Shown here: positions 96-10,392 of the stretch, one piece after another
Numbering within the stretch: the stretch's first letter is position 1
Layout of the letters: the number at the start of each line of letters is the position of its first letter
Program-made: the position numbers and the translations under genes
Source of the DNA: Betaproteobacteria bacterium
Lineage (GTDB): Bacteria > Pseudomonadota > Gammaproteobacteria > Burkholderiales > Burkholderiaceae_D
Reading direction: 5' to 3'
Assembly: GCA_025356395.1 (NCBI GenBank)
Contig: JANXTA010000005.1
Location: forward strand, 1 to 64,000
Length of the DNA stretch: 64,000 nt
The notes under the pieces: generated by a model
Told to the model about the DNA's origin: nothing
Databases searched by the model: none
What the model saw: the letters and a program-made list of their open reading frames with translations, nothing else

Positions 96-305
96 TTATT
101 TGCCGGAGTGTCCGGCGTCGTCCTTGGGCTCGCGGACGCGCATGACGATGTCGCTGCCGTCGATCGGCAGGAGGTTGAGCTTGATATTGTAGCCCTTGCC
201 GTCGCCGTGCGCCCAGGCGGCGCCGACCTCGGTCCAGAAGCCCTTGTCGGAGCTGTCGGACTTGCGAACGGAGGAGACGGTGTGGGTGGGGAGTTTTCCG
301 GCCAT
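96..305 (-). CDS. small hypothetical protein, 69 aa
   Basis: The product starts MAGKLPTHTV and carries the stretch FWTEVGAAWAHGDGKGYNI. It is acidic-basic mixed, with no signal peptide or membrane segment. The pattern (short threonine-rich start, then a WTEVGAAW...DGKGYN core and a LPIDG strand) resembles small proteins I associate with plasmids and integrative elements, but I cannot name a family. It lies 212 bases downstream of the chimeric aceE gene, where aceF would be expected, and a strong hairpin follows it. It may belong to the same foreign segment as the odd tail of that gene. The reading frame is certain enough to call a gene; function is unknown. Confidence 0.6.
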   Translation of the reverse strand: MAGKLPTHTVSSVRKSDSSDKGFWTEVGAAWAHGDGKGYNIKLNLLPIDGSDIVMRVREPKDDAGHSGK

Positions 306-517: not shown

Positions 518-2311
518 TTACTGGGCGAGAGCCTGTGTCTGCGGAGTTGCCGCGATGGTCTCGAGGAGCTGCTGGCGTTGGGTGTCGATCGCGAGATCGG
601 ATTTGGTGCAGGCGTCGATCAGGCCGGCGGCCTGCTCGGGCGACATTCCGAGATCCGTGAGCGGCGAGCCGTCGGCGAGGGCATCGGCGATGTGGGGATG
701 GCGAGCCAGGGCTGCTTTGATCTGCCGGCTGTAGGCGTAGATGGCATCGGGATCGGCCTGGAGGGGCGGCGGTGGGAGACCGGCCGCACCGAGAGCACCA
801 TCCGCGGCGAAGCCAGGGTTGATGAGATAGCCATCGAATCGTCGATCGATGTCGCGCAGCGCGCCGGAGGCGGCTGCGCGCAATTCGGGCGTCGTAGTCG
901 GAAAGACGTAGTCACCGGCCTTGATGCCGCTTGTGGCAGTCGGGTGGTAGCGAGCCCCGGCGGCGACGGCGATCCGGTCGGCGACACCATCTTTCTGGGG
1001 AAACCGGACAACGACGCTGTCGGCTTTGTCGGTGACGACGGCGTACTTGGAGCGCAGCGCCAGTTGGGCGAGCTCGAGGTCCTCGGCGAGGTCGGCCGCG
1101 GCATCGAACGCAATGTCGAGAGCGGCGATCGACTGCAGCAGCTTTTCGAAAGCCCGGTATTCGTCGGGATGGATCGGAAGATCGGCCGCCGCGGTCGACG
1201 TCGAAAGGGCGGCGTCAAACTTGTTGGCGAAGGCCGTGGCGTAGTGGCCGAGTTCGTCGACAACGAGGGGCGGCTGATCGCGGATGTAGGCGCCGGACTC
1301 GACGGAGTACTTCTGGAACTGCCCGTCGACGGTGTTGTTCATCTGGTTGAGCAGCGCGCCGTCTTTGTCCTTGGCGAGCAGGTCGTCCCACTTGGTGCCC
1401 CAGATGACCTTGATGACGTTCCAGCCGGCACCGCGGAACGTGGCCTCCAACTCCTGGATGACCTTGCCGTTACCGCGCACCGGACCGTCGAGGCGCTGCA
1501 GGTTGCAGTTGACGACGAAGATCAGGTTGTCGAGCTTCTCGCGCGCGGCCATATTGATGGCACCGAGCGACTCGGGCTCGTCCATCTCGCCGTCGCCGCA
1601 GAACACCCAGATCTTCCGATTCGCGGTCTTGGCGATGCCGCGGGCTTCGAGATACTTGAGGAAGCGCGCCTGATAGATCGCCTGGATCGGGCCGAGGCCC
1701 ATCGACACGGTCGGGAACTGCCAGAAGTCCGGCATCAGCTTCGGATGCGGATACGAGGTCACGCCCTTGCCGTCGACGTCCTGGCGGAAGTTGGTGATTT
1801 GCTCTTCGGTCAGTCGTCCCTCGAGGAACGCACGGGCATAGATGCCCGGCGCGGAGTGGCCCTGGATGTACAGCAGGTCGCCACCATGATCCTCGGTGGG
1901 CGCGTGCCAGAAGTGATTGAAGCCGGCGCCCAGCATATTGGCCAGCGACGCGAACGACGCAATGTGGCCACCGAGGTCGCCTTCGCCCTTGTTGGCCCGA
2001 ACCACGATCGCCATCGCGTTCCATCGCATCATCGACCGTAGGCGCTCCTCGATCTCGAGGTTGCCCGGGTTGCGGGTCTCCTGATCGGGCGGGATCGTGT
2101 TGATGTACGGCGTGTTGGCCGAGAACGGGACCTCCGCGCCGTACTGGCGCGCGGTGTCGATCAGTTGCGCGAGCAGCTGATGCGCGCGCTCGGGTCCTTC
2201 GCGCTCGATGACGGCGGTCAGCGCATCGAGCCACTCCCGCGTCTCCCCCGGATCGGAGTCTTGGACATCCGCAGGCTTCGCGGACTGCAGCGGATCGGGC
2301 AGGGCAGCCAT
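518..2311 (-). CDS. aceE: pyruvate dehydrogenase E1 N-terminal part fused to an unrelated tail (chimera)
   Basis: The first ~342 residues are clearly homodimeric pyruvate dehydrogenase E1 (AceE): the start MAALPDPLQSA, NTPYINTIP, HFWHAPTEDHGGD, and the thiamine-diphosphate site GDGEMDEPES near residue 238 with NLQRLDGPVRGN. AceE is normally ~890 residues. Here similarity stops after GAYIR near base 1286, where the enzyme should continue into its pyrimidine-binding and C-terminal domains. The remaining ~255 residues (DQPPLVVDELGHYATAF... to the end) match nothing I recognise. A transketolase-type E1 without those domains cannot be active. The ATG at 2311 has a good GGAG site. The expected partners aceF and lpdA are missing downstream. 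Either a real recombination or a misassembly at about 1280-1290; the upstream kinase/folD/prlC neighbourhood is normal for the aceE locus. Confidence 0.8.
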   Translation of the reverse strand: MAALPDPLQSAKPADVQDSDPGETREWLDALTAVIEREGPERAHQLLAQLIDTARQYGAEVPFSANTPYINTIPPDQETRNPGNLEIEERLRSMMRWNAMAIVVRANKGEGDLGGHIASFASLANMLGAGFNHFWHAPTEDHGGDLLYIQGHSAPGIYARAFLEGRLTEEQITNFRQDVDGKGVTSYPHPKLMPDFWQFPTVSMGLGPIQAIYQARFLKYLEARGIAKTANRKIWVFCGDGEMDEPESLGAINMAAREKLDNLIFVVNCNLQRLDGPVRGNGKVIQELEATFRGAGWNVIKVIWGTKWDDLLAKDKDGALLNQMNNTVDGQFQKYSVESGAYIRDQPPLVVDELGHYATAFANKFDAALSTSTAAADLPIHPDEYRAFEKLLQSIAALDIAFDAAADLAEDLELAQLALRSKYAVVTDKADSVVVRFPQKDGVADRIAVAAGARYHPTATSGIKAGDYVFPTTTPELRAAASGALRDIDRRFDGYLINPGFAADGALGAAGLPPPPLQADPDAIYAYSRQIKAALARHPHIADALADGSPLTDLGMSPEQAAGLIDACTKSDLAIDTQRQQLLETIAATPQTQALAQ

Positions 2312-6227: not shown

Positions 6228-7124
6228 TCAGCCCTTGCGCATCTTGCGACGACGGCCGGCCAGCAACGCGACGCCTGCGATACCGAGCAGAGCGATCGAG
6301 CTGGGCTCGGGTACGGTCGAAGCGCGCACCGTGGTCAGGCCGTTGACCTTGAAGTAATCGTTGCCGACGTCCACCGTGCCGCTGGCGACGGGTCCGACGA
6401 TCCCCATGTAGGCACCGACCAGCCAGTACTGCGACGAGATCGCCGTCGACAGTCCGGTCGCGTTGTTGCCGACCGCCATGTTGCCGATGTTCGTCGCGAT
6501 GCCCCACTGTCCGGAGCTGACCAGGTCGGACGTCGTCCGGGCTGAAAGGGTGCTGGACGGAATGCCCGTGCCCTTGTAATAGAGGATCGTCGAATCGGAA
6601 TCGAGGCCGCTGTTCGCAGACGGGAAGCCGATCGAGACCTGCGACAGCGTGACGGCGCTGGCGAACGAGAACACCAGGGCGTCGTAGGCACCGACGTTGT
6701 CGATGGCGTGCTGGTTGTTCGACTGGTTCGGCATGTTGTTGGCGGTCAGTTCCGTGTTGGCGGCAGTACCGCCCGGCTGGCTCGTGACCCCCAGATCACC
6801 GGCATAATTCCCGATGAACGCCGTCTGGAATTTGTTGGCCGTGCCGGTCGTCGACCAGGCCGAAACCGTCACGTTCGAGTTGGCTGTCGAGCCGCCCCAG
6901 GTGATCGTATTTCCGTAGTTGGTGCCGCCCTGTCCGTATTGCGACACGCTCGAGTTCTGGAAGGTCGTCACGCCAGCCGACGTGGTCGTCGCGTTCGTAC
7001 CAGCGCCAGGATTGGTCGCCGTGGTCGCCGATCCGGAGAAGTTGTAAGTGGTGGTGGTGACGGCGAATGCCGGTACGGCCATGCAAAGGGCCAGTGCCGA
7101 CAGCGCGAAGCGGATGGGCTTCAT
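6228..7124 (-). CDS. PEP-CTERM sorting-domain secreted protein
   Basis: 298 residues. The N-terminus (MKPIRFALSALALCMAVPAFA) is a signal peptide. The middle is Thr/Ser/Asn/Gly-rich, as in extracellular matrix proteins. The C-terminus VPEPSSIALLGIAGVALLAG followed by RRRKMRKG is the PEP-CTERM signal: Val-Pro-Glu-Pro, a membrane helix and an Arg/Lys tail, recognised by exosortase EpsH/XrtA. No exosortase gene is in this window. The ATG at 7124 is chosen because a signal peptide follows directly and GGGAG precedes it; this site lies in the small palindrome GGGAG-AA-CTCCC. The gene stands alone, with its own terminator. The exact role (exopolysaccharide-associated surface protein) is inference from the family. 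Confidence 0.9.
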   Translation of the reverse strand: MKPIRFALSALALCMAVPAFAVTTTTYNFSGSATTATNPGAGTNATTTSAGVTTFQNSSVSQYGQGGTNYGNTITWGGSTANSNVTVSAWSTTGTANKFQTAFIGNYAGDLGVTSQPGGTAANTELTANNMPNQSNNQHAIDNVGAYDALVFSFASAVTLSQVSIGFPSANSGLDSDSTILYYKGTGIPSSTLSARTTSDLVSSGQWGIATNIGNMAVGNNATGLSTAISSQYWLVGAYMGIVGPVASGTVDVGNDYFKVNGLTTVRASTVPEPSSIALLGIAGVALLAGRRRKMRKG

Positions 7125-7427
7125 CGGGAGTTCTCCCTCATTAATTATGTGAACTTCAACACGCGCCATTGCGCAAACTTGTGTTCACTCCTTGCAAGGG
7201 CTATGCCGGATCTCGTAAACCATTGAATCAAAACGTTCTGAGAAAAGATTAGTGCGTTCGATCCTTGCTGATTGGAAAGCAATCCGACACTTTTTAGAGT
7301 CGTCGGCCGACCCCCGAAGAGGGGTCTCGGCGGGCGAATGACACCATGCTAAGCTCCGCGCCCGCCATATTTTCCGGTTCCGCTCCGACTCTTTACGCAG
7401 CGGGTTTCCCCACATTCAGCATCGATC
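7125..7427. other. intergenic region between the PEP-CTERM gene and folD
   Basis: A 303-base divergent gap without a gene. It is less GC-rich than its surroundings. It holds two short hairpins in plus orientation: GATTG-N5-CAATC at 7270-7284, followed by a run of five T at 7291-7295, and GACCCC-N6-GGGGTC at 7309-7326. Promoters for both flanking genes must lie here, but I find no clear -35/-10 pair. A sigma-54 consensus was looked for and not found. Confidence 0.5.
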
Positions 7428-8297
7428 ATGACCGCCCGCTTGCTTGACGGAACCGCCCTGTCCGCGCGCCTTCGGCAGGAAATGTCGCCGCGGATCGACG
7501 TGCTGAGCCGTCGCGGTAAGCCGCCCGGCCTAGCCGTCGTGCTGGTCGGCGACGACCCCGCTTCTCAGATCTACGTCCGCAACAAGGTCAAGGCGTGCGC
7601 CGATGTCGGGATCCGCTCGGAGTTGCACCGGATGTCGTCCACCACTTCCGAAGCCGCATTGCTCGACGTCATCGCCCGGCTCAATTGCGACCGGACCGTC
7701 AACGGCATCCTGGTCCAGATGCCACTCCCGCCGCAGATCGATCCGGCGCGCGTGATCGAGGCGATCGCCATCGAAAAGGACGTCGACGGCTTCCACATGC
7801 TGTCGGCGGGCGCGCTGATGACCGGCCGCATCGATGGTGGCGTCGGCTTTCGTCCGTGCACGCCCTACGGCGTCATGCGGATGTTGGACGACGCGGCAGT
7901 GCCGATCGCCGGCGCGCACGCGGTCGTCATCGGCCGTAGCAACACGGTCGGCAAGCCCATGGCGCTCATGCTGCTGGCCCGCCACGCCACCGTGACCATC
8001 TGCCACAGCGCGACCCGCGGACTGGCGGATCTGGTGCGGCAGGCGGACATCGTCGTCGCGGCGGTCGGCCGTGCGTCGACCGTGACGGCCGACATGGTCA
8101 AGCCGCAGGCCGCGGTGGTCGACGTCGGCATGAACCGCGACGCGGCCGGCAAACTGGTCGGCGACGTGGATTTTTCGGCCGTGCGCGAGGTCGCAGGATG
8201 GATCTCGCCGGTGCCCGGCGGCGTCGGCCCCATGACCATCGCGATGCTGCTCGACAATACCGTGCTGTCCGCCGAAAGGGCGGCCGCCCCACCCTGA
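7428..8297 (+). CDS. folD: methylenetetrahydrofolate dehydrogenase/cyclohydrolase
   Basis: 289 residues, full family length. FolD interconverts 5,10-methylene-, methenyl- and 10-formyl-tetrahydrofolate with NADP in the cytoplasm. Seen here: [17 protein letters not shown] with the catalytic Tyr and Lys, the loop ILVQMPLP, the signature PCTPYGVM, the NADP-binding [14 protein letters not shown], and the C-terminal [12 protein letters not shown]. The ATG at 7428 begins MTARLLDG, typical of the family. prlC starts 10 bases downstream and is probably co-transcribed. Confidence 0.97.
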
Positions 8298-8307
8298 CCA
8301 CCCCGCC

Positions 8308-10392
8308 ATGACGACAGACCACGTGCCGAATCCCCTCCTAGCAATTGCCGACACGTTTCGCTATGACGCGATCGAAGCCACGCACGTGGTGCCCGCGGTG
8401 ACGACGGTCCTCGCCGAGGCGACCGCAGCGATCGAGCGACTGCAGACGGACCCGAGCGCCAATACCTGGTCGTCGTTCGTCGAGCCCTTCGAGGCCGCGA
8501 CGGAGCAGGTGAGTCACATCTGGTCGGCGGTCTCGCATCTGAGCGCCGTCTCGGACACGCCGCCGCTGCGCGCGGCCTACAACATCTGCCTGCCGAAGAT
8601 CACCGAGTTCTGGACCGCGCTGTCGCAGAACGAGGCCTTGTTCGATCGCTATCGGGCGATCGAGGCGTCGGCCGACTTCGCGTCGCTGACGCAGGTCCGA
8701 CAACGCGTGATCGTCAATGCCTTGCGCGACTTCCGACTCGGCGGCGCTGAGTTGCCGCCGGTCGAAAAGGCGCGCCTAGCTGCGATCGAAGACGAGTTGG
8801 CCATGCTGTCGCAGTCGTTCTCCGAACATGTCCTCGACGCGACCAACGCGTTCGTGCTCGACCTCGCGGACGCAGCCGCCCTCGACGGCCTGCCCGACGA
8901 TGCGCTCGCGGCCGCGAAGTCCCGCGCCGAGACGGCCGGTGTGTCTGGCTACCGCGTGACGCTGCACATGCCGTCGTACCTCGCGGTCATGCAGTTCGCG
9001 AAGGACCGCTCGCTGCGCGAGACCGTGTACGCGGCCTACTCCAAGCGCGCGTCCGAGTTCGGCAGCCCCGATCAGGACAACGGCCCGCTGATCACCCGCA
9101 TCCTCGCGTTGCGTGCAAAAGCCGCGACCCTGCTCGAGTACGACGACTACGCCAGCCTGTCGATGGTCCCCAAGATGGCCGACTCCCCCGCCGACGTGCT
9201 GCGTTTCCTCGAGGAGCTGCGCGTACGCGCCCGACCGTTCGGCATGCGGGATCGCGACGAACTGCAGGGCTTCGCGCAGCAGCACCTGGGACTCGATCAC
9301 CTGGAAGCCTGGGACATCACCTTCGCGTCCGAGCGCCTGCGTGAACACCGCTACGCCTTCTCGCAGCAGGAGGTGAAGGAATACTTTCCCGAGACCAAGG
9401 TGCTCCAGGGATTGTTCCGCGTCGTCAGCCGCCTGTTCGCCGTCGAGGCGCTCCAACGGGTCGGCGACGACGCACCGTCGCTGTGGCACCCGGACGTGAA
9501 GTTCTTCGACCTCGTCGATGCGTCGGGAAATCTCGTCGCGCAGTTCTATCTCGATCTCTACGCCCGCGTCGGCAAGCGCAGCGGCGCGTGGATGGCGTCG
9601 GCGCGCAGCCGGGCCCTGCGGGCCGACGGAAGCTGTCGTACCCCGATCGCCTACCTCACCTGCAATTTCTCCGAGCCGCTTCGCGACGCGTCGGGCCAGG
9701 TCGTGCGGGAGGCCCTGTTCACGCACTCCGAAGTCAACACGCTGTTCCACGAGTTCGGCCACGGGCTGCATCACATGCTGACGCGCGTCGACGAGTCGGC
9801 GGTGACCGGCATCCGCGGCGTGGAATGGGACGCCGTCGAACTGCCGTCGCAGTTCCTCGAGAACTTCTGCTGGGAGTGGGACGTCGTCGAACACATGACG
9901 GCGCAGATCGACACGGGCGCGCCCATCCCGCGGGCGCTGTTCGACCGCATGCTCGCGGCGAAGAACTTCCAGGCGGGACTGCAGACGCTGCGCCAGCTCG
10001 AGTTCGCGATCTTCGACATGCAACTGCACAGTCGCTTCGATCCGCGCGACGGCCGGTCGGTGCTGGACCTGCTGAACGAAGTCCGCAAGAGCGTGGCCGT
10101 GTTCGAGGTGCCGAGCTACAACCGTCAGCCCAACCAGTTCTCGCACATCTTCGCGGGCGGTTACGCGGCCGGCTACTACAGCTACAAGTGGGCCGAGGTC
10201 TTGTCGGCCGACGCGTACGCGCAGTTCGAGGAGGACGGCGTGCTGAACCCGACCACCGGTGCGCGCTTCCTCGAAGAGATCCTCGGCGTCGGCGGCAGCC
10301 GTCCGGCGATCGAGTCGTTCGTGTCGTTTCGCGGCCGCGAACCGGGCCTCGAAGCGCTGCTCCGGCACAATGGCATGGTCGATACGGCCTGA
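8308..10392 (+). CDS. prlC: oligopeptidase A (M3 zinc metallopeptidase)
   Basis: 694 residues, as expected for PrlC/OpdA. The zinc site HEFGH has His481, Glu482 and His485, in the context NTLFHEFGHGLHHML; the third ligand follows in NFCWEWDVVEHM. The enzyme degrades short peptides, including cleaved signal peptides, in the cytoplasm. No signal peptide is present. It lies between folD and a periplasmic thioredoxin-like gene, with 10- and 20-base gaps. Confidence 0.95.
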   Translation: MTTDHVPNPLLAIADTFRYDAIEATHVVPAVTTVLAEATAAIERLQTDPSANTWSSFVEPFEAATEQVSHIWSAVSHLSAVSDTPPLRAAYNICLPKITEFWTALSQNEALFDRYRAIEASADFASLTQVRQRVIVNALRDFRLGGAELPPVEKARLAAIEDELAMLSQSFSEHVLDATNAFVLDLADAAALDGLPDDALAAAKSRAETAGVSGYRVTLHMPSYLAVMQFAKDRSLRETVYAAYSKRASEFGSPDQDNGPLITRILALRAKAATLLEYDDYASLSMVPKMADSPADVLRFLEELRVRARPFGMRDRDELQGFAQQHLGLDHLEAWDITFASERLREHRYAFSQQEVKEYFPETKVLQGLFRVVSRLFAVEALQRVGDDAPSLWHPDVKFFDLVDASGNLVAQFYLDLYARVGKRSGAWMASARSRALRADGSCRTPIAYLTCNFSEPLRDASGQVVREALFTHSEVNTLFHEFGHGLHHMLTRVDESAVTGIRGVEWDAVELPSQFLENFCWEWDVVEHMTAQIDTGAPIPRALFDRMLAAKNFQAGLQTLRQLEFAIFDMQLHSRFDPRDGRSVLDLLNEVRKSVAVFEVPSYNRQPNQFSHIFAGGYAAGYYSYKWAEVLSADAYAQFEEDGVLNPTTGARFLEEILGVGGSRPAIESFVSFRGREPGLEALLRHNGMVDTA

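Follow-up and report, generated by a model that had tools for sequence, protein, structure and literature searches.

The open reading frame that starts as the pyruvate dehydrogenase E1 gene aceE and runs toward the beginning of this contig is most probably a chimeric contig end, either a metagenomic or an amplification chimera, and not a gene fusion (we put the probability at roughly 0.86). The window, meaning the whole stretch of 64,000 bases that was analysed, ends in a three-part mosaic composed of the genus's own aceE, a short piece of actinobacterial-like aceE and plasmid-like DNA. We infer that these parts were joined by the assembler or by DNA amplification of a mixed sample instead of by a cell. 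The initial annotation had considered either a foreign element or an assembly join of two sequences, and the evidence favors the latter with the correction that the apparent sources are three, because the middle aceE piece had been overlooked. The features discussed below are as follows.

1-64,000: the window, which is bases 1-64000 of contig C135 (119,757 bases); window base 1 is the contig end
2311 to 518, minus strand: fused ORF, 597 aa counted from the ATG at 2311
1462-2311, minus strand: 5' part of the genus's own aceE (about codons 1-283), assigned by DNA identity to the same-genus genomes G001 and G002
1430-1484: first junction zone, from native to foreign aceE, in a very conserved stretch, placed by exact runs and informative sites
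1278-1461, minus strand: actinobacterial-like aceE patch (about codons 284-345), assigned by DNA and protein identity
1278-1286: second junction, where aceE homology stops after ...GAYIRD
518-1285, minus strand: tail ORF of 255 residues, unrelated to aceE
96-305, minus strand: 69-aa ORF of small-plasmid type, matched by 16 plasmid records

The reading frame and its first junction

The start codon at 2311 was chosen from an alignment with G001, G002 and G011, while the program-made ORF list starts the frame at 2521. Residues 17-345 of the fused ORF correspond to AceE, matching positions 4-332 of the 885 in the TIGR00759 model (E 1e-170), and the ORF as a whole scores 569.7 bits, below the cut-off of 859.9, so that it does not qualify as an AceE over its full length. 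The initial description of aceE joined in frame to an unrelated tail was therefore accurate as to the frame itself, which is on the minus strand and remains open through both junctions, and TIGR00759 confirms the aceE part. Since the first junction lies within homologous sequence, only the second needs an in-frame join by chance.

A single join had been claimed, and aceE homology does end at about 1286, but an earlier junction, at about 1484-1430, had been missed; the character of aceE switches approximately 150-200 bases before the reported join. DNA identity between the window and the two same-genus genomes is 92-94% over 1462-1711 and 87-89% over 1712-2311. From 1471 down, this identity falls through successive 60-base bins from 85-87% to 77, 57 and 37%, whereas G001 and G002 agree with each other at 93, 90, 85 and 92% in the same four bins. 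Informative sites, meaning positions at which G001 and G002 have the same base and three or more of the four actinobacterial references do not, describe the same change: from 2311 to 1472 there are 120 genus-like, 7 actinobacterial-like and 4 sites that are neither, and past 1472 there are 5 genus-like, 4 neither and 19 actinobacterial-like, the last count being biased toward Actinobacteria by the choice of references that match the segment. The loss of same-genus identity stands regardless of that bias, because it is independent of those four references. Site 1484 is the last genus-like one and site 1430 the first that is actinobacterial-like.

Parts belonging to different organisms switch at this junction within sequence that they share. 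The window and G001 are identical over 80 bases (1473-1552), and exact runs to two actinobacterial loci cover 36 bases (L055, 1485-1520) and 35 bases (L065, 1485-1519), which means that a k-mer bridge was available here. With L056, the nearest relative of the patch, exact runs on the native side close to this junction do not exceed 23 bases.

The actinobacterial-like patch and the foreign end

At the DNA level the patch is 85% identical to an Actinomycetes metagenome-assembled genome (L056), 84% to Nocardioides luteus (L054) and 82% to Nonomuraea gerenzanensis (L052). It shares 133 and 134 of its 184 bases with G001 and G002 (72-73%), which share 163 of the 184 with each other, and it is absent from both of these genomes. 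The patch protein reaches 82.5% identity to L056 over 63 residues; the highest value among 32 rows for members of the order is 69% (65-68% within the genus), and a Chloroflexi and a planctomycete (Gemmataceae) metagenome-assembled genome reach 73-75%. These DNA and protein comparisons were made in the correct frame, but on aceE loci whose choice and ranking do not represent the phyla evenly. Judged by these identities, the putative donor is assignable no more closely than as actinobacterial-like. The patch keeps both the register and the reading frame of the native aceE, and GC content at the third codon position rises from 0.86 in the native part to 0.97 in the patch, then drops to 0.77 in the tail.

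Actinobacterial AceE continues past GAYIRD with NFFG, EHFFG or a similar motif, but the window does not, and no aceE match was found in bases 1277-1. The end of the patch coincides exactly with the start of the foreign tail. When patch and tail were queried together in three genomes with an actinobacterial-like aceE, the aceE patch alone was matched in all three. The tail itself gave nothing above the curated cut-offs in Pfam and NCBIfam, nothing in PHROGs up to an E-value of 1, and no relative among plasmids or phages. Strict patterns found no relative in viral contigs or genome contigs (in the latter, 8-residue patterns suited to near relatives only), and an exact 38-base pattern from the tail start was absent from viral contigs. 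Among 398 genomes of the phylum the tail retrieved itself alone, and among 195 relatives it retrieved two weak matches (E 0.003 and 0.005) besides itself. A search of PDB sequences returned one match at E 0.087, and the tail modelled alone folds poorly (pLDDT 49.8, pTM 0.29). A perfect inverted repeat, with 17-base arms at 342-358 and 501-517, encloses 142 bases, and its arm at 501-517 lies immediately next to the tail ORF's stop codon.

The small gene next to the tail had been called plasmid-like, and the 16 plasmid records that match its 69-aa product, together with four plasmid contexts, bear this out. Identity to these records is 46-56% over 52-75% of the length of the protein, none reaching 80% query coverage, and going by the record names 15 of the 16 plasmids presumably belong to Pseudomonadota (14 of them to Hyphomicrobiales) and one to a cyanobacterium. 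Mobilization and toxin-antitoxin genes are found near the relatives in all four contexts, and a replication gene in three. No relative of the 69-aa protein was found among viral contigs. The suggested search of both foreign products against plasmids yielded relatives for the 69-aa protein and none for the tail. Relatives of the tail beside those of the 69-aa protein on the four plasmids were considered and rejected after comparison of eight ORFs and four stretches. Tetranucleotide use in bases 1-1277 is unusual, with 4 of 202 overlapping stretches of the window lying equally far from its mean, and no integrase or recombinase match was obtained for the two foreign ORFs in Pfam, NCBIfam or PHROGs, the visible foreign DNA being just 1.3 kb. 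Elsewhere in the window, the C-terminus VPEPSSIALLGIAGVALLAGRRRK of the minus-strand ORF at 6228-7169 looks like a PEP-CTERM sorting signal.

The arrangement was seen in no other genome among those compared. Matches were found in 38 of 40 genomes, the source assembly included, three of them just weak and transketolase-like, and among the matches listed none except the window's own locus extends past residue 346. An aceE is present in 116 of 120 loci, some of which are two cuts of one place and therefore represent fewer genomes than loci; the other 4 are E2 loci. All 116 extend past codon 345, 115 of them in one stretch and one (L083) split by one residue. No other aceE among the 40 genomes and 116 loci is interrupted at about codon 345, and the same insertion was not found elsewhere, the strict patterns for the tail having no match in genome contigs and the 398 genomes of the phylum yielding only the tail itself. 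A narrow literature search on aceE as an integration site, which says nothing of the literature at large, returned a single item, whose title concerns glucose transport.

The missing 3' part of aceE and aceF

The source assembly comprises 4.47 Mb in 175 contigs. A search with the C-terminal 561 residues of same-genus AceE found only a paralogue in it, at C135:111708-113357, and AceF of G011 gave just a 35% match on contig C3, which is the sole PF00198 match in the assembly and fits SucB. An intact aceE-aceF elsewhere, one of the proposed checks on the join, was not found in the assembly, neither the 3' part of this aceE nor aceF being present. The statement that aceF and lpdA are missing is right in that aceF is not in the assembly, but all that it reflects is a contig running out at base 1, before aceF would be reached.

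It had also been proposed that, were the join real, the strain must rely on a further pyruvate dehydrogenase. A second E1 of the full-length homodimeric type does exist at C135:111708-114359, with similar ones in G001 and G002, but it scores higher on the model 'AKGDH_not_PDH' (1524.6 bits) than on that of aceE (1382), above both cut-offs, and the only E2 present is SucB. There is no POR_N match in the assembly. Bacteria of this type would be expected to possess an acetyltransferase E2, which makes an assembly gap likelier than gene loss. SucB as the sole E2, together with the lack of POR_N, points to such a gap more than to a strain without a pyruvate dehydrogenase complex. G002 likewise has one PF00198 match, and its aceE contig also ends within aceF; in G001 the aceE contig breaks off within a lipoyl domain of aceF, and aceF is located close to the end of a different contig, C210. 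Several lipoyl-like matches occur in and just after aceF (L139, on G001:C210, at 7888-9731, and L035 at 3-170). Repeated lipoyl-like stretches are a possible cause of the assembly breaks in this genus.

Origin of the mosaic

If the mosaic is a chimera, an assembler, probably working on metagenomic short reads, would have started along the native aceE and crossed into the aceE of another organism via a stretch with at least 35 bases identical between phyla. The path would then have left the foreign aceE for plasmid-like DNA before the contig stopped, and the true 3' part of aceE, aceF and presumably lpdA would have been lost in the gap. The position of window base 1 at the contig start supports this, as does the fact that both same-genus assemblies break just downstream, in aceF. 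Counting against it are the lack of a shared k-mer shown at the second junction, the short exact runs to L056 (up to 23 bases) beside the first, the two switches within about 200 bases, where an ordinary misjoin would require fewer, and the open frame kept across both junctions.

The order native aceE, foreign aceE, foreign DNA is also what a Campbell-type insertion would leave, if a plasmid-like element carrying an actinobacterial-type aceE fragment had recombined into the chromosomal aceE and its other end had stayed unassembled. We regard this as unlikely, even though the 69-aa protein resembles those of small plasmids and an insertion in part of the population could also break a contig. 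The far side that it predicts, with aceF and the remainder of aceE, is missing from the assembly, and the two boundaries and far-side aceE that would identify an integrative element were not found. Moreover, the patch is actinobacterial-like, yet 15 of the plasmids bearing a relative of the 69-aa protein presumably come from Pseudomonadota and the remaining one from a cyanobacterium, no other aceE among those compared is interrupted here, the tail has next to no relatives in the 398 and 195 genomes, and neither foreign ORF is integrase-like, within the limits of 1.3 kb. Even less credible is the more specific proposal that such an element took its aceE fragment from an actinobacterium-like host and integrates in the aceE of a distant host at about codon 345; if true, a gene of central metabolism would be split by an element of an unusual kind. 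A real patch acquired from a distant donor by recombination, with just the second junction misassembled, would explain why patch and native aceE share register and frame, but it is the least probable of these readings: the patch occurs in neither same-genus genome, it ends exactly where the foreign tail starts, and recombination between DNAs so far apart is rare.

If the contig end is chimeric, as we consider most probable, an in-frame fused ORF flanked by normal genes can still be an assembly product, and a stretch-by-stretch comparison with the nearest relatives exposes the switch of source. Left unflagged, the fused ORF would give the impression of a new fusion protein and of a species that has lost pyruvate dehydrogenase.

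Integrative elements are known in conserved protein-coding genes, for example phages in icd. The present locus resembles those cases in having plasmid-like DNA that interrupts a conserved housekeeping gene, and differs from them in that no integrase, second boundary, restored gene or second case was seen. Chimeric contigs arising from k-mers common to different genomes have been described (PMC7299287). Unlike such inter-genome chimeras of metagenome assembly, the contig end analysed here contains two switches in about 200 bases, with a shared k-mer traced only for the first; like them, it would join sequences of different organisms via shared k-mers, here in a highly conserved gene and at a contig end.
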